From Bacteroidota bacterium (GTDB lineage Bacteria; Bacteroidota; Ignavibacteria; Palsa-1295), in the NCBI GenBank assembly GCA_030706385.1, contig JAUZOQ010000024.1, positions 1-40,350 of the forward strand: a stretch of 40,350 nucleotides of DNA, in the 5' to 3' direction. The notes below the pieces were generated by a model that had not been told where the DNA came from, did not search any database, and saw only the letters and a program-made list of their open reading frames with translations. A program made the position numbers and the translations under genes. Shown here piece by piece: positions 31,961-40,262 of this stretch (position 1 is its first letter; every line of letters begins with the position of its first letter).

Positions 31961-31968
31961 TATTTTTG
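31961..31968 (+). promoter_or_regulatory. Likely -7 element for the kelch-protein gene
   Basis: TATTTTTG matches TAnnTTTG, 39 bases before the ATG at 32008. The -33 region is poor (TTTC at a spacing of 23). Confidence 0.4.
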
Positions 31969-32007
31969 AGGACCACCAGTTCTCGATCATCACCTCAGGA
32001 TAAAACT

Positions 32008-33240
32008 ATGAAAACGCTTATTGTCTTCTTCGTACCTCTACTGCTACTAATTTCCTCATCACTTTCGCTCAATGCTCAAGGTATAGTAGACGGAACATGG
32101 ATTCCGCGATCCAGCGAGGGCTTTAGCGCTCGAAAGGGACCGGCTTCCGTGGTTGTTGACGGAAAGATCTATGTGCTCAATGGCCTTGCACCGGGTAATG
32201 TTATCTATAGAGATTCGATCGTCGTCTACGATCCCGTCTCGGACTCCTGGAGCACTCCCATAACGATCGGGCAAGACACGCCACGGTATATGATCGCTGC
32301 CGATGTTGTTGACGGGAAGATCTATGCAATAGGCGGATCAAATAGTGTCGCATTGACAACGCTTCAGGTATATGACCCTTCGAAAAAAACCTGGACGACT
32401 CCGGTTACAACAGGTACGTTTACCGCGCGCGACGCACTGACAACCGGCGTCGTGGACAATAAGATCTATGCAATCGGAGGAGAAGATGATTTCGGACCCG
32501 TAAATACCGTTGAAGTCTACGATCCGGCACACAATACCTGGAGCACCCCTACAACGACGGGGACATTTGTTCCAACGAGCAAGCTTACATCGTGTGTTGT
32601 CAATAATAAGATCTACGTGATCGGCGGCTACGATGGATCAATGGATCTGAACACTGTTGAGATCTTCAATCCTGCCACGAATGTCTGGACTTCTCCGACT
32701 ACGACGGGAACGGCTACACCACGTGATGCGCTGACCTCCTGTGTTGTCAACGGAAAGATCTATGTCATTGGCGGATTCTCCAATGGGCAAACGCTCAACA
32801 CGGTGGAAATTTTCGATCCGGCCACGAATGCCTGGAGCACTCCGGTAACTAGCGGTACATTCACTCCTCGATGTTATCTTACTTGCAGTGCGATCGGCGA
32901 TAGCATTTATGTGATGGGTGGGTTCGATACCGATCGTGATTCGGTTCTGAACACGAATGAGGAATTGGTAGCCTTGAAAAGTGGCGTAACGATCAAGCCC
33001 CGTACTCCTGAGCTTCGCGTTTCACCGAATCCTACTTCAGGAATGATCTCCCTTCGGAATCTGCCCGAGCACATTCAGCATCTTTCGGTTACGAACGTTC
33101 TGGGAGAATTGATCCTCGAAAGAGAAGGGTTGAATTTGCCTGACATCACCATCGATCTATCGAAGCAACCTCAAGGTTCATATTACGTCAGGATCGTTAC
33201 GGCTACTTCGTCGGAGAGTAGATTGATCGTTCGGGAGTAA
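32008..33240 (+). CDS. Kelch-repeat propeller protein exported by T9SS
   Basis: From the ATG at 32008 the 410-residue protein starts with a signal peptide ('MKTLIVFFVPLLLLISSSLS', LNAQ cleavage). It then carries five or six kelch blades with the regular pattern 'KIYAIGGEDDFGPVNTVEVY' and 'YDPAHNTWSTPTTTGTF', which fold as a beta-propeller. The last ~75 residues, from 'LRVSPNPTSGMISLRNLPE' to 'SRLIVRE', are a T9SS type A sorting domain related to that of the protein at 1970-4087. The blades are very similar to each other, suggesting recent internal duplication. It is probably a surface or released binding protein; the ligand is unknown. Confidence 0.9.
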   Translation: MKTLIVFFVPLLLLISSSLSLNAQGIVDGTWIPRSSEGFSARKGPASVVVDGKIYVLNGLAPGNVIYRDSIVVYDPVSDSWSTPITIGQDTPRYMIAADVVDGKIYAIGGSNSVALTTLQVYDPSKKTWTTPVTTGTFTARDALTTGVVDNKIYAIGGEDDFGPVNTVEVYDPAHNTWSTPTTTGTFVPTSKLTSCVVNNKIYVIGGYDGSMDLNTVEIFNPATNVWTSPTTTGTATPRDALTSCVVNGKIYVIGGFSNGQTLNTVEIFDPATNAWSTPVTSGTFTPRCYLTCSAIGDSIYVMGGFDTDRDSVLNTNEELVALKSGVTIKPRTPELRVSPNPTSGMISLRNLPEHIQHLSVTNVLGELILEREGLNLPDITIDLSKQPQGSYYVRIVTATSSESRLIVRE

Positions 33241-33955: not shown

Positions 33956-34501
33956 TTACTCTCCGCTCTTGGCAACCAGATGCTGCACGAAGGATTCGAC
34001 GGCAGTATAATTTTGGAGATGGCTATCGGTGCAGCTAATACTTGCGATCTGGCTTTCGGGGACAAGTTCGGGATTGATGACCTTATAGAGCATCGCTTCC
34101 GAGCGGTAATAGACTTCACGATCTTTGTTGATCTTCATGCGCGGCTCGTTGAATCCGACGATCCAATCCGCACCGAGCGAGCGGGCTTGCTTCTCAAGCA
34201 TTGCAAGGACATCTTCAGCAGAGCTTGCCTGAATGGTGATACGACCGATCTCGATCGCGGATTTCGGCATGACCGAATCCGGCAGCGGCTCATGATAAAT
34301 GAGTGAACTGGTATCACTTACAGCCGGCAAAGCGAGAAATGAATGACGCTCGAGACGTACGGTATCGATGCTACGAGCACGGATCGTTTCCGTCTTCCAG
34401 AGATCTTCATTTTCCGAGAAATTTTGCGCCAAAGCAGGCTTGCTTAAGCCAAGTGCCAAACTAATTGCTAATCCCAGTCCTAATTTGTTGATCGATTTCA
34501 T
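33956..34501 (-). CDS. Small secreted protein, unknown function
   Basis: The ATG at 34501 has a strong GGAAGGA site and a classic signal peptide ('KLGLGLAISLALGLSKPALA', cleavage before QNF); the frame extended to 34537 was rejected for that reason. The 181-residue protein has a mature alpha/beta domain with 'IEIGRITIQASSAEDVLAML', 'KQARSLGADWIVGFNEP' and 'YYRSEAMLYKVINPE'. This order loosely resembles small envelope proteins of the YbjQ/heavy-metal-binding type (strand, helix, 'GAdaIvgv', strand), but the match is weak. Neighbours give no clue: it stands alone between the candidate small RNA and tRNA-Gly. Confidence 0.75.
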   Translation of the reverse strand: MKSINKLGLGLAISLALGLSKPALAQNFSENEDLWKTETIRARSIDTVRLERHSFLALPAVSDTSSLIYHEPLPDSVMPKSAIEIGRITIQASSAEDVLAMLEKQARSLGADWIVGFNEPRMKINKDREVYYRSEAMLYKVINPELVPESQIASISCTDSHLQNYTAVESFVQHLVAKSGE

Positions 34502-34726
34502 TTTCGTATTCCTTCCGTGAGGCAGCCCCTTAATCATAGAATCACATACCTAAATATCATACACAAGCTGTCTCAATCACCATTCGATACAATTCTTATA
34601 CCATAAGTCCGGAGCCTCCGAAACCCTATTCTGATGCGTCAGGACCAGGGTTTTGAGTGGATCCCTTCGCTTGAAAACTCCGGAAATCTAAATGCGATTT
34701 TCACCTCTATTCGCACGAAAATAGCG

Positions 34727-34750: not shown

Positions 34751-34822
<72 letters not shown>

Positions 34823-34907
34823 CTTTTGACAGCTGCCCAACACGCATCGGGGCTTGGGGAAACATACAGCTCCCCCACATTTTCACACGAATTCTTATTC
34901 ATTTTGA

Positions 34908-35702
34908 ATGCAGAATCTCCCGGACCTTGAGCCACTCATTCGGAATACTTCCCGCGGCGATAAGCGAAGCGAGGAACGGCTCTTCGGCATTCTGTATAAA
35001 TTTGTCCATGCCGTGATCCGCAAGAAATGGCGCAGTTCGCTTTCCGAAGATGAGATCGCCGATATCCAGCTCGACTGCCTCGAGAAACTCCTCATCACAT
35101 TTCGCGATCCCGAAAAAGCCGAGAAAGTGCTCGAACAAGCCCGTGTATTCGGCTTTGTGCATGTTGTTGCAGAGAATACGGCCATCGATTACAACCGCAA
35201 GCGCAACCGCCGCGACAAGGTCTTCATCAGCATCGATGAGATCTCCGAATCCGAAGAAAACCCGAACTGGGAATCGAAGCTTTCCGGAACTACTTCGACG
35301 AGCGATCTTTCGGATTTTATCCTTGGCGGAATGGAGACGACACGTATGCTTTCCGAACTTGATGGAAAGTACCGTCAAGTTCTCGAAGAGCGCCTAGGGG
35401 GAGCGGAATATGATGAAATTGCTGAAAAGATCGGTATTTCCGTCGCAAATGCCCGCCAGATCCACAAACGCGGTGTCAATCTACTCCGGCAAAAACTCGT
35501 CCAAAAACACAAATCCGTACTTTCTTCCCTTTCGGTGTCACAAAACGCCGTTTTGAAACGATTGTATATGAAAGAGGCAGATCCGGGCTCAGTTGATACC
35601 GGAGAAACCACTGAAGAAGAGGCACTATCGGCATTCTACGCAGCCTTGCTGACCAAAGGCCTTGTGATCTTGCTTCTCGGAATAGGATTAAGGAATTTTT
35701 AA
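34908..35702 (+). CDS. Sigma-70-family (ECF-like) RNA polymerase sigma factor with hydrophobic tail
   Basis: The 264-residue protein has a sigma region 2 ('ADIQLDCLEKLLITFRDPE', 'VHVVAENTAIDYNRKRNRRD') and a region 4 helix-turn-helix ('YRQVLEERLGGAEYDEIAEK', 'GISVANARQIHKRGVNLLR'), with no regions 1 or 3, as in ECF sigma factors. After region 4 there is an extra ~70 residues ending in a hydrophobic stretch, 'ALLTKGLVILLLGIGLRNF', which could tether it to the membrane. It is followed after 3 bases by an anti-sigma-like membrane protein. ECF factors are usually held inactive by such a partner and released by a signal. Target promoters are unknown. Confidence 0.88.
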   Translation: MQNLPDLEPLIRNTSRGDKRSEERLFGILYKFVHAVIRKKWRSSLSEDEIADIQLDCLEKLLITFRDPEKAEKVLEQARVFGFVHVVAENTAIDYNRKRNRRDKVFISIDEISESEENPNWESKLSGTTSTSDLSDFILGGMETTRMLSELDGKYRQVLEERLGGAEYDEIAEKIGISVANARQIHKRGVNLLRQKLVQKHKSVLSSLSVSQNAVLKRLYMKEADPGSVDTGETTEEEALSAFYAALLTKGLVILLLGIGLRNF

Positions 35703-35705
35703 GAA

Positions 35706-36599
35706 ATGAAACAAAGCGAGAAAATAGCGAATAATTTTTCCGATGCCTTCCTTATGGCATTGCTCGAAGGAGTGGATACATCGGAAGTTATCCGGCAATT
35801 TTCAAAGGATTATCCCGAAATGGAATCGCAATTCCGCGCGAACGCCGCATCGCTGGAATTGCTCTATGGCGATATTCGCACTTCCGGTCAAATTTCCGAA
35901 AACGAAATTTCAACCGCCTACCAAAAAGTATCGCAGAGATTAGGATCGACCGCACCGGCGAAAACTGTGCTTGCTTCCAAACCCGGATTTTTTGCGCAGA
36001 TGCGTATGGCATTTTCTTCCAGCCCGATGTGGGCCGGTGCTTCGCTTGGCATCGGCGTTGCCGTTGTCATCGCTTTGCTCTGGCAGCCATGGGTGATCAA
36101 AGAGTCGTTGAAAGAGACTGCCGAACATGCAACTCCTTCGACAATCACTCCTTCAACTCCTCAGGCACAGCAACAATTTGCAGTCAATGATGAACCGTCC
36201 GTCGATCCGATGAAGATGCCGGAAGTCCGGTATCGCGGCAAGGATACGAAACAGATGCTGAGCACGACGCAAAAGAGAATGCAGGATTCGATCGATGCTG
36301 CGCGTTTGAAAGCAATGGCAACTCCGAAAGCATTAGCTGCACCGACCGATCTTCATCTCGAACCTCTTTCTCCCGGTGCGATCTTCATTCGCTGGAAAGC
36401 TGTCGAAGGCGCTCTCAGTTATATCGTTGAGTGGAAAACCGAGAACGATGAAAACTTCAAACCTGTTACGCAGATCAGTCAGACGGGGACGCGCATCACA
36501 TCCTTAGAGAGCGGGAAAACATATTTCGTGCGTGTGATCGCAGCGAGCGGCGAACGAACCGGACCGGCGTCTGATGCCAAGAGCATCGTTGTTCCGTGA
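35706..36599 (+). CDS. Single-pass anti-sigma-like protein with external FN3 domain
   Basis: The 297-residue protein has an N-terminal cytoplasmic helical part (1-100) with 'DAFLMALLEGVDTSEVIRQF' and 'SKDYPEMESQFRANAASLEL'. This 'LLxG.D...YPE' pattern is frequent in proteins encoded just after sigma factors. One TM helix (about 108-127, 'WAGASLGIGVAVVIALLW'), a linker rich in Thr/Pro/Gln, and a fibronectin type III domain (212-297, 'PTDLHLEPLSPGAIFIRWKA') follow. No zinc-binding anti-sigma motif (HxxxCxxC) is present. The layout, sigma-side tail inside and FN3 outside, suits a transmembrane regulator. AGGAA overlaps the sigma-gene stop, and its own stop overlaps the CHAT gene start (GTGA). 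Anti-sigma function is inferred. Confidence 0.75.
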   Translation: MKQSEKIANNFSDAFLMALLEGVDTSEVIRQFSKDYPEMESQFRANAASLELLYGDIRTSGQISENEISTAYQKVSQRLGSTAPAKTVLASKPGFFAQMRMAFSSSPMWAGASLGIGVAVVIALLWQPWVIKESLKETAEHATPSTITPSTPQAQQQFAVNDEPSVDPMKMPEVRYRGKDTKQMLSTTQKRMQDSIDAARLKAMATPKALAAPTDLHLEPLSPGAIFIRWKAVEGALSYIVEWKTENDENFKPVTQISQTGTRITSLESGKTYFVRVIAASGERTGPASDAKSIVVP

Positions 36600-39085
36600 A
36601 ACTTCTCATAAGCGTACTCTCACTAACTTTCGTTTTCTTTCTCCGTTCATCGAGCGCTCAATCACCCGTTACTCCTGCTTTCGAACACACTCTTGATTCC
36701 CTGTTCTACAGCGGCGAGTATGCTTCGGGCGAAGAGATGATCCGTTCAGCAATCTCTCGCAATCAATCAACTTCCGATACCACTCTTGCCTGGCTTAGCC
36801 AGAAGCTCGGCGCATTCACTCAGGAATTGGGTAAATATGCCGATGCCGAAGATGCATATCTGCGATCGGAGAAAATTTACTCCGCGTCGCTTTCGGCCGA
36901 TCATCCGTATGTTGCTTCCGTTCTCAGCAGGCTTTCCGTTCTCTACTCCGAGCAAGGCCGGTTTGCCGATGCCTTAAGTTCTGCGCGAGAACAATTTCTC
37001 ATCTACACGAAATTCTTCGGCAAAGATCATCCTGCAACAGCTCTTGCATCGATCGTGCTGGCATTGCAGTATCTCAATACCAACCAAACCGATTCTTCCG
37101 AGCGATTGCTGGCTGAGTACCGTCCCATCATCGTGAAGAACTTCGGCGCAGTCAGCAAAGAAGCATCGCGCCTTCATGAAGCTGAGGGCAGAATGGCTTT
37201 TGCGAAGAAAGACTACCGCAAAGCGGAAGCATCATTTATCATTGCCAGGCAGACAGCGCAAAACACTCCGGGCGATAAGCATCCGCTTACTGCCCGGATC
37301 GCTTTGGCGCTGGCACGCACGAGGCTGATACTCGGAAATACCGATTCGGCGATGAGCAATATCACCGATGCGCTCGGCGTTGCATTCCGCGCAGCCCGCC
37401 CCTCGCATCCTTTTACGGCCGAGTGCCTGATGACGAAAGGATGCATCGAAGAAGCAAGCGGTAATATTCCCGCTGCATTCGGATCCTATCAACAAGCACT
37501 CGCCGTCTACAAGGAAGCGACGCGAGAGAATTTCCGTTACACAAGCGAGCGTGAGCGGCTCGCTTTTATTCGAATTGTCAATGAACAACTTTCGCGCGTC
37601 GCATCGACGACGCTGCGAACATCCGCCTTCTATCCGGGCGGTATCGGAATCTACTACGACGGCTTGCTTTTCCAGAAAGGTATCGTCCTCTCCAGTCTGC
37701 AATCGATGCGCCGAAGAGCCGTTGAATCCGGCGACTCCTCCGTGCATGCACTGCTCGATAAACTTGCAGCGATTCGCACGCGGATATCCCGACTCTCAAG
37801 CGGTACGGCATTTACCGGCAAGCCATTTCTGGATAAAGATTCGCTCGGCATGATTGCTAACGATCTCGAACGAGATCTGGCGCGCAAGGTGCAGGCCTTC
37901 GAGAAGTTGCAGGCTCTCGGGATGCATTCCTGGAAACATATCCAGGGATCGCAGACCCGCGATAACTTCTGCATCGAGATCAGCCGATTTCCCTACTATG
38001 ATGGCGAGCGCCGAACCGATACGACATACTATGCTGCACTCATTCTTCAGGGCTCCGATACAAGTGCTCCGCATCTTGCCGTGATCGGCACCGATGCCAT
38101 TGAGGATTCTTCCGTGATCAGACAGTATTTCCGATCGCTCGAAAAACATCCGCGCAAGAAGAATACCAATGCAGCGCTCATTTCGAAATTGCTCTGGTCG
38201 CCGCTCGAGCCGTTCGTTGCCGGAGCGAAGAAGATCTTCATTGCTCCCGATGGCATTTACGATCAGATCGCAATTCCGGCGCTCTTCGATAATAGCGGCA
38301 AGCGCCTGCTCGAGCAATTCCAGATCGCAACGGTTGCAACGACGGCGGATGCTGCCGAGCTCGAGCCGCAGTTCGATTCGGCATCGATCGATATCTTTGC
38401 CAATCCCGATTTCTCTGCCGGAGAACTCGAGCCTCTGCCCGGCACAATGAGAGAAGCGGAATCGATCTCGCAAATCTTTGACGGCTACAAATGGAAAGTG
38501 CATTCATTTACACTTGGAGATGCAACCGAAAAAAATCTGAAGCTTCGGCATCATCCATCAATTTTGCATATTGCAACGCATGGAAGATTTTCATCGAACT
38601 CCGAATCCGTAATTGCCTCCGATAGTCTTGAGTCGAGCAATCCGTTCACTCTCGAGAATTCGCTGATCGGATCGGCTTTGTATTTTACCGGAGCGAATAT
38701 CACGCTGGCAAAAGGCTCTTCCGATCCGGCGAACGACGGAGTACTTACGGCTCTGGAAGCCATGGATCTTGACCTGCAAGGCACCGATCTTGTCACCTTA
38801 AGCGCCTGCGAAAGCGGCAAAGGAATTATCCAGCCCGGCGAGGGTGCATTCGGGCTTGCGCGTGCCCTCCGCACTGCCGGAGCACAGAACATCCTTATGA
38901 GCCTCTGGCAAGTGCCGGATAAGGAGACAAAAGAACTGATGACGGCATTCTATTCCCATCTCAAAGGTGACAGGCTCGGAGAGGCATTCCGAAATGCGCA
39001 GCTCGAAGAGCGCGAGATCATCCGGAAACGATACGGCGACGATATCCCCTATTTCTGGGCCGGATTCGTCCTTATCGGACAATAG
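36596..39085 (+). CDS. Exported TPR-CHAT caspase-like protease
   Basis: The 829-residue protein starts at a GTG overlapping the previous stop (GTGA) and has a signal peptide ('MKLLISVLSLTFVFFLRSSS'). Residues ~40-340 are TPR repeats of kinesin-light-chain type ('ADAEDAYLRSEKIYSASLSA', 'DHPYVASVLSRLSVLYSEQG'). The C-terminal ~250 residues are a CHAT domain with catalytic His662 in 'ILHIATHGRF' and Cys738 in 'LVTLSACESGKG', then 'GEGAFGLARALRTAGAQNIL' and 'DIPYFWAGFVLIG'. CHAT proteins are caspase/separase-related cysteine peptidases, often activated through their TPRs. The signal peptide places this one in the envelope, next to a membrane protein with an external domain that could be its target. 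The start is fixed by the coupling overlap. Confidence 0.9.
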   Translation: MKLLISVLSLTFVFFLRSSSAQSPVTPAFEHTLDSLFYSGEYASGEEMIRSAISRNQSTSDTTLAWLSQKLGAFTQELGKYADAEDAYLRSEKIYSASLSADHPYVASVLSRLSVLYSEQGRFADALSSAREQFLIYTKFFGKDHPATALASIVLALQYLNTNQTDSSERLLAEYRPIIVKNFGAVSKEASRLHEAEGRMAFAKKDYRKAEASFIIARQTAQNTPGDKHPLTARIALALARTRLILGNTDSAMSNITDALGVAFRAARPSHPFTAECLMTKGCIEEASGNIPAAFGSYQQALAVYKEATRENFRYTSERERLAFIRIVNEQLSRVASTTLRTSAFYPGGIGIYYDGLLFQKGIVLSSLQSMRRRAVESGDSSVHALLDKLAAIRTRISRLSSGTAFTGKPFLDKDSLGMIANDLERDLARKVQAFEKLQALGMHSWKHIQGSQTRDNFCIEISRFPYYDGERRTDTTYYAALILQGSDTSAPHLAVIGTDAIEDSSVIRQYFRSLEKHPRKKNTNAALISKLLWSPLEPFVAGAKKIFIAPDGIYDQIAIPALFDNSGKRLLEQFQIATVATTADAAELEPQFDSASIDIFANPDFSAGELEPLPGTMREAESISQIFDGYKWKVHSFTLGDATEKNLKLRHHPSILHIATHGRFSSNSESVIASDSLESSNPFTLENSLIGSALYFTGANITLAKGSSDPANDGVLTALEAMDLDLQGTDLVTLSACESGKGIIQPGEGAFGLARALRTAGAQNILMSLWQVPDKETKELMTAFYSHLKGDRLGEAFRNAQLEEREIIRKRYGDDIPYFWAGFVLIGQ

Positions 39086-39137
39086 GACCGGAGAACTGTC
39101 ACAGAGCGAAATTGACGAACGTTTCTTCTATATACCT

Positions 39138-40262
39138 ATGCGAACAGTATTCTACCGATCGATCCTCGCACTGGCTGCCGTAATGACTCTCGGCTTCCGG
39201 AGCGAGCTGTGCGCTCAGCCCTTGCGGTGTGAGCTTGCGATCTCTCCGCGGCCATCGACACGGCTTGCCGAGTGGAGCAGCCGCCGCGAAACGGCCACGC
39301 TCATGATCTTCAACACCGGCGATAAACCGGCCAATGTGAAGATCGATGCACGCCTATCGCTTAACGGCTCGCTCATTGCTTCGACAAAAGCGGGATCGAT
39401 GCCCGTACTTCAGATACCGGTCGGCGGACCGGCCATCTTTTATGCCGGAGATCTTTTCCCCGAGAATGCCGTCAGCTTTTTCGGCGATCTCAAACAGACG
39501 ACGATGCGATCCGGAATCCTGCCCGAAGGCAGTTACGAATTGTGCATCACGCTCATGAGCCCGCAGACGAACCAACCTGTCTCGGCACCAACATGCCGTT
39601 CGTTCTTTCTTGCGAAGTTGATCTTGCCGACGTTGCTCCAACCCGAAGATAACAAGAAGATCATCAGCGGCACGCAGTCGACGACGCTTTTCGTCTGGAG
39701 CCCGTTGATCCCTGTTTCATCGGCATCGGTCGTATACCGTCTTCGTCTTGTCGAAGTCCTGCCCGGCCAATCGGCCCAGCAGGCCTTTTCGGTCAACCTA
39801 CCGCTATTCGAACGCACGGCTCCGAACTCGACGCAGCTTCTCTGGCCTCCGGAAATTCCCTTGCCCGCATCCGGCGCAACACTTGCATGGGGTGTGCAGC
39901 CCGAAGACGATCAGGGAAATCCGCTCGTTCTGCCCGAGCGCTATACGAATGCTTTCAATCTCATCGTTCTCCCATCGAAAGATGAATGCGCGAAACTTCA
40001 GACAAAGATCGCCAACCTTCGCCAGGAAGGATTAGCTATCGAAGAGCAGTACTGGTCGGCCGACGGCCTGCTTCAGCGAACCACACAACTCCTCGAAGAA
40101 GCCGAAGAACGCGCCGATGCACTCGATATCCAAAAGATGAAAACAGAAGTAGCAAGCGCCGGAAAGAAACTCGAAGAGATAAGAGTCACCTTCGATTCAG
40201 CCAGAAAAAAATACGACGATGCGATTACCAAGTACGAAGAGTGCTTGGGGGGAAGTCGATAG
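39138..40262 (+). CDS. Secreted protein with Ig-like domains and C-terminal coiled coil
   Basis: From the ATG at 39138 the 374-residue protein has a signal peptide ('YRSILALAAVMTLGFRSELC', AQ cleavage). The middle, around residues 150-270, includes 'LLQPEDNKKIISGTQSTTLF', 'VYRLRLVEVLPGQSAQQAF' and 'LAWGVQPEDDQGNPL'. This is the Ig/FN3-like pattern, ending in YAWxV, common in Bacteroidota surface proteins of the TANFOR type. The last ~90 residues form a charged coiled coil. The frame upstream to 38967 overlaps the CHAT gene and lacks a signal peptide, so 39138 was chosen. It follows the CHAT gene by 52 bases and may be an outside partner or substrate. Function is unknown. Confidence 0.7.
   Translation: MRTVFYRSILALAAVMTLGFRSELCAQPLRCELAISPRPSTRLAEWSSRRETATLMIFNTGDKPANVKIDARLSLNGSLIASTKAGSMPVLQIPVGGPAIFYAGDLFPENAVSFFGDLKQTTMRSGILPEGSYELCITLMSPQTNQPVSAPTCRSFFLAKLILPTLLQPEDNKKIISGTQSTTLFVWSPLIPVSSASVVYRLRLVEVLPGQSAQQAFSVNLPLFERTAPNSTQLLWPPEIPLPASGATLAWGVQPEDDQGNPLVLPERYTNAFNLIVLPSKDECAKLQTKIANLRQEGLAIEEQYWSADGLLQRTTQLLEEAEERADALDIQKMKTEVASAGKKLEEIRVTFDSARKKYDDAITKYEECLGGSR

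Follow-up and report, generated by a model that had tools for sequence, protein, structure and literature searches.

Exported CHAT proteases that are not orthologous to one another occur across the phylum beside unrelated pairs of an ECF sigma factor and a membrane anti-sigma factor, roughly tenfold more often than chance predicts. One such association is a four-gene operon in the window (the whole stretch of 40,350 nucleotides analysed here, which is also one entire contig, contig 79, in the 3.52-Mb draft genome of an uncultured Bacteroidota bacterium). In our opinion, this operon may be an envelope-to-transcription unit in which the CHAT protease acts as the site-1 activator of the sigma/anti-sigma pair, a reading to which we give slightly less than even credence. 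The broader proposition, namely that the envelope CHATs of Bacteroidota are widespread site-1 proteases for membrane anti-sigma factors, with a conserved Arg-small bond as the cut site and one branch employing a tail-anchored sigma factor, is more tentative still.

The sequence-only reading had described four genes on one strand, separated by 3, -4 and 52 bases and encoding an ECF-like sigma factor, a single-pass membrane protein that carries an outside FN3 domain, an exported CHAT protease whose catalytic dyad is intact, and an exported coiled-coil protein. The coordinates of the open reading frames bear out this layout, and the four assignments agree with the searches reported below; all features of the operon lie on the + strand. 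The first gene (34908-35702) encodes a sigma factor of 264 aa that matches TIGR02937 over residues 22-197 (47.1 bits; cut-off 42.9) and scores over the cut-offs of Sigma70_r4_2 (PF08281, 33 bits) and PF04545. It contains sigma regions 2 and 4 only, within about residues 1-200, and thus belongs to the ECF factors (group 4); none of the named ECF subfamilies scored above its cut-off. The second gene (35706-36599) encodes a single-pass membrane protein of 297 aa, a candidate anti-sigma factor by position, topology, conservation and AF2 model. Its TGA stop codon is overlapped by the GTG start of the third gene (36596-39085), which encodes the TPR-CHAT protein of 829 aa. The match of this protein to the CHAT family is strong (PF12770, 185 bits; cut-off 24), as is that to TPR_12 (108 bits). 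The CHAT domain (38177-39082) retains His662 in an HIATHG motif (38579-38581) and Cys738 in a SACESG motif (38807-38809), which makes the protein a CHAT protease by domain and dyad, with proteolysis itself predicted only. Its N-terminus (36596-36661) resembles a signal peptide, as do those of its orthologues, and it is the product of the single CHAT gene that a Pfam search found in the genome. The fourth gene (39138-40262) encodes an exported beta-sandwich/coiled-coil protein conserved beside the CHAT protease, with a signal-peptide-like start and a coiled-coil-like C-terminal part; no Pfam family scored over its cut-off for this protein, TANFOR being matched weakly. It is a candidate sensor or regulator of the CHAT protease. 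Downstream of it, the contig ends at 40350.

The conserved adjacency anticipated by the sequence-only reading was observed, the opposite of the outcome that it had regarded as fatal to its proposal, namely relatives in which CHAT is never near the sigma/anti-sigma pair. Comparison by tblastn and maps of open reading frames revealed the same order of sigma factor, membrane partner, CHAT and fourth gene in two further genomes, G002 and G006, in the latter of which the operon spans two contigs. Identities to the window proteins are 60-62% for the sigma factor, 36-42% for the partner, 41% over the full length for CHAT, and 43-44% for the fourth protein; retention of the order at such identities indicates that the four-gene arrangement is not due to chance. 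It should be noted that the G006 CHAT gene is divided between the ends of two contigs, which share overlapping sequence (positions 1-1631 of L034 and 9391-10488 of L035; contigs G006:C72 and G006:C316), so that this operon is whole by inference only. Among 13 genomes of the family, exactly three carry the sigma orthologue, and a CHAT gene is detected by Pfam in those same three. A profile search of 395 genomes of the phylum returned no further orthologue of the sigma factor, and a sigma-profile search of genome contigs gave a single locus, corresponding to the G006 contig. Thus, the exact operon is narrow in distribution, yet its units travel together. A tRNA-Gly gene (34751-34823, + strand) lies directly upstream of the operon in all three genomes (3/3) and is the only likeness among the upstream regions of the three sigma genes, in which no common promoter motif was found. 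Also kept with the tRNA-Gly in all three is a divergent gene for an exported protein of about 190 aa (33956-34537, - strand), with 47-52% identity among the genomes; this protein is a possible target or partner.

The linkage extends well beyond this family. CHAT genes of the class were taken regardless of their neighbours, and the open reading frames around them were called and searched with a profile built from the sigma factors gathered here. With the window family left out, an ECF sigma gene lies within 3 kb of CHAT at 16 of 70 loci in the class, where a genome with about 20 sigma genes per 4.1 Mb would give 1.7 by chance. Outside the class the count is 11 of 39, against 1.1 expected; at five of these 11 loci (L158, L161, L167, L170, L175) roughly 2.5 kb of DNA with unrelated genes separates the sigma gene from CHAT. 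The corresponding P values (6e-11 in the class and 3e-8 outside it) are too small, since related loci were counted as independent, and the association is strong nonetheless. Most CHAT genes have no sigma neighbour. A sigma gene within 1.6 kb of CHAT, usually with a single-pass protein beside it, is found at 24 of 112 loci, a set that includes L033 of the window family and two matches from the blind search described next.

In a tree of 73 CHAT domains, built by a quick method and containing some long branches, sigma linkage is distributed over several lineages and requires nine changes, and the window clade stands separate. In the blind search, an alignment (A6) of five partners with a zinc finger, a membrane helix and an FN3 end was compared with 296 genomes; it yielded two full-length matches beyond the query genomes, one of them from another class, and both are flanked by an ECF sigma gene on one side and a CHAT gene on the other. 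That the window neighbourhood is without function, a coincidence kept by descent, is accordingly a very improbable explanation: the exact operon is known from three genomes only, as such a coincidence would have it, but trios of the same type, made up of genes that are not orthologous, turn up far more often than chance would allow, and blind prediction succeeded twice. No CHAT relatives were found in viral contigs, and in the plasmid CHAT neighbourhoods of cyanobacteria and Flammeovirga no annotated sigma gene adjoined the matches inspected.

The sequence-only reading had taken the membrane partner to be anti-sigma-like and to be cut by an envelope CHAT protease that thereby releases the sigma factor, and this interpretation is partly supported. 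It is favoured by the conserved adjacency, by the exported CHAT with its dyad, and by the wide association; against it, residues 1-80 carry neither a zinc motif nor a fold with a PDB match. The partner has a single hydrophobic segment at residues ~108-126 (36027-36083, by hydropathy). The inside N-terminal domain (residues 1-80; 35706-35945), which is the candidate sigma-binding part, consists of four helices in the AF2 model (residues 3-21, 25-35, 37-60 and 65-78) and is followed by a disordered stretch, a helix and, outside the membrane, an FN3 domain (residues 212-290; 36339-36575) recognised by Pfam (PF00041, 35.3 bits; cut-off 25) and by Foldseek. The model is of moderate confidence (mean pLDDT 57.6), and residues 1-95 of this moderate model have no fold match in the PDB. 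The window partner does not match zf-HC2, the zinc motif of class I anti-sigma factors, and so falls outside class I. We regard it as the likely holder of the neighbouring sigma factor. The inside parts of linked partners vary: zf-HC2 scores over its cut-off in L114 and L072 and just below it in L088, and is absent from the partners of the window and of L101. FN3-like outside ends occur with either kind of inside part; they are recognised by Pfam in the window family and by eye in L080, L082, L088, L091, L113, L114, L116, L138 and L139. By eye also, the outside part is TPR-like in L106, L109, L120, L161, L166, L167, L170, L174, L175, L176, L178 and L179, and of another beta type in L072 and L115. 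Common descent of the window FN3 end and the ends of the zinc-finger partners was considered and set aside, as the profile comparison was non-significant (probability 0.2).

A feature shared by these otherwise different partners is an Arg followed by a small residue in the outside linker. An R-[GSA] step is present there in 28 of 28 linked partners, some of them related, versus 5 of 9 controls, and its position is aligned within the TPR and FN3 types. In the window family the motif is [YF]-R-G-x-D in all three orthologues (RYRGKD, QFRGAD, LFRGTD), with R177-G178 of the window partner (36234-36239) as the candidate site of cleavage or docking. Other FN3-type linkers read EFRSEE, KFRSGD, HFRSSA, PFRGAS, TTRSDE and NTRSNL, and TPR-type linkers AERGSS, IERGTT, IERSAE, INRAAD, VNRGAE and SRGRIT. 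From composition alone, an R-[GS] step would occur about once in each outside region. The aligned position within each type is better evidence than the bare counts. As a strict rule for CHAT proteases, Arg-small cleavage is weakened by data on Craspase, whose orthologues have no fixed P1 residue (PMC11106740). Because the motif is short, is expected about once by composition, comes from partly related partners and has no counterpart in a fixed Craspase P1, we treat the step, a candidate cut or docking site, as a lead only.

The closely linked CHATs have two properties that bear on how they might act. The His and Cys motifs are recognised in 23 of the 24, which suggests that catalysis matters, and a C-terminal membrane helix is found in 10 of 24, versus 6 of 88 other CHATs. 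Such a helix would hold the active site against the outer surface of the inner membrane, next to the partner linker; the window CHAT itself is without it. An alternative in which CHAT steers the pair without cutting it, its TPRs serving as a sensor, or as a scaffold to which the FN3 end binds, or cuts some other protein such as the fourth gene product, draws on the nature of TPRs and FN3 as binding modules and on the conservation of the fourth protein beside CHAT. The near-universal His/Cys motifs speak against it, and we consider it improbable.

A somewhat stronger competitor, although still an unlikely one, reverses the order of events, so that the sigma/partner pair senses envelope stress through the FN3 end and switches on CHAT and the fourth protein as effectors. 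ECF genes often adjoin and control their own operon, and the window operon is tight. Gene orientation tells against such an output role. The genes are co-directional in the window family and in L101, L106, L108, L109, L114, L080, L120, L092 and L179, and divergent in L072 and L115, but in many relatives (e.g., L082, L088, L091, L113, L116, L138, L139, L174) the CHAT gene and the sigma-partner pair are convergent, hence not co-transcribed. Membrane anchors on CHATs and the recurring linker Arg likewise fit physical coupling better. Anchors, Arg and convergence are all compatible with a sigma factor that also regulates CHAT.

If CHAT is the site-1 activator, as we prefer, the partner, its FN3 end reaching into the periplasm, would tether the sigma factor to the inner membrane in an inactive state. 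The exported TPR-CHAT protease would cut the partner in the disordered outside linker, with R177-G178 as the candidate bond, and either a ligand on the TPRs or the fourth protein, also exported, would gate this step. The shortened outside part could then be acted upon by an intramembrane site-2 protease of the M50/RseP type, and cytosolic proteases would complete the breakdown and free the sigma factor, which is perhaps itself tail-anchored. The single-pass partner with an outside part fits the topology of regulated proteolysis, and an M50 protease is encoded elsewhere in the genome. We infer sigma binding, gating, cleavage, the cut site and the site-2 step alike.

The tail of the sigma factor, which the sequence-only reading had overlooked, adds a complication. 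In the window sigma and its orthologues, a conserved extension of about 55 aa closes with 13-16 hydrophobic residues, present in all three orthologues and reading KGLVILLLGIGLRNF in the window (35655-35699), a candidate tail anchor. Its hydropathy is the highest among 34 sigma C-termini, followed by those of the orthologues and of L101, an independent co-directional sigma-partner-CHAT operon and the sole other case among the 34; the rest do not exceed 1.06. The tail may be an anchor that by itself locates the sigma factor at the membrane, or it may contact the membrane helix of the partner. Should it be an anchor, cutting the partner may not free the sigma factor, and a simple model of cutting the tether is complicated. 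Restriction of the tail to the window orthologues and L101, whose partners both lack the zinc anti-sigma motif, would suit a scheme in which the tail does most of the holding, site-2 proteolysis of the sigma factor itself sets it free, and the partner is accessory. With about 13-16 hydrophobic residues, however, the tail is short and may serve as a protein contact instead of an anchor; we judge this scheme quite improbable.

In logic, the nearest known system is the type III-E CRISPR Craspase, in which Csx29 cleaves Csx30, the inhibitor of CASP-sigma (PMC10028731). Both systems link a TPR-CHAT protein, at the level of the genes, to an ECF sigma factor and its inhibitor, the latter a candidate here. 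Unlike Csx29, the CHAT described here has a signal-peptide-like start, and in place of Csx30 its neighbour is an FN3-ended membrane protein; the CHAT falls outside the Csx29 family (NF041237, 12.7 bits; cut-off 300), and no CRISPR effector genes neighbour it within the window region studied. The RseA/DegS/RseP and RsiW-type systems of regulated intramembrane proteolysis resemble the proposed one in that a membrane anti-sigma factor with an outside part, a candidate here, would be cut first at site 1 and then at site 2; the site-1 protease here would differ in being a caspase-like cysteine protease. Outside CRISPR, genes for CHAT, subtilase and carboxypeptidase are reported in the context of the ECF54 group (PMC8999054, section 3.3), and a bare CHAT-ECF link is therefore not new, a precedent that the sequence-only reading did not mention. 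ECF54 is proposed to act without an anti-sigma factor, whereas here a membrane partner lies between sigma and CHAT. Neighbourhoods of EACC2-caspase, ECF sigma and DUF1822 also bring a caspase-fold protease and an ECF sigma factor together (PMC8195603), but with another protease family and in a conflict-system architecture with EACC2. The intervening membrane partner, the export of CHAT, the recurrence across the phylum and the sigma tail were not described in the open-access literature searched.

CHAT proteases are common in bacteria, and to our knowledge few outside type III-E CRISPR have a known substrate. From their recurrent association with sigma/anti-sigma pairs, a specific substrate and bond can be predicted for many of them. 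If the reading is true, a caspase-like enzyme would join the bacterial routes from envelope signal to transcription, and the arrangement would hint at the origin of the CHAT-inhibitor-sigma circuit of Craspase.

Several other CHAT neighbourhoods were encountered. Fourteen loci (L046, L047, L049, L083, L086, L087, L089, L093, L094, L095, L098, L099, L104, L130) form one CHAT clade (99 SH-aLRT) of proteins of about 800 aa, lipoprotein-like in the members inspected, with no ECF sigma gene within 3 kb; in L046, L047 and L049 a FecR-like gene (~340 aa) and a gene for a protein of ~750 aa lie in front. At L161, L167, L170 and L175, where the arrangement is conserved within a single family of another class, the sigma factor and a TPR-ended membrane anti-sigma candidate with the linker G-[VLI]-R-[SA] adjoin an scpA-like gene, and CHAT is 2.5 kb away. 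Elsewhere in the window, an exported Kelch-repeat protein (31966-33240, + strand) carries a Por_Secre_tail domain, which points to type IX secretion. Lastly, divergent CHAT-like proteins (E 1e-22 to 1e-37) at L125, L126, L127, L128 and L129 have as neighbours an ECF sigma factor and a protein that is either exported or membrane-bound, with a thymidylate-kinase-like gene adjoining in at least four of these loci, which come from several families; this is another conserved sigma-protease neighbourhood.
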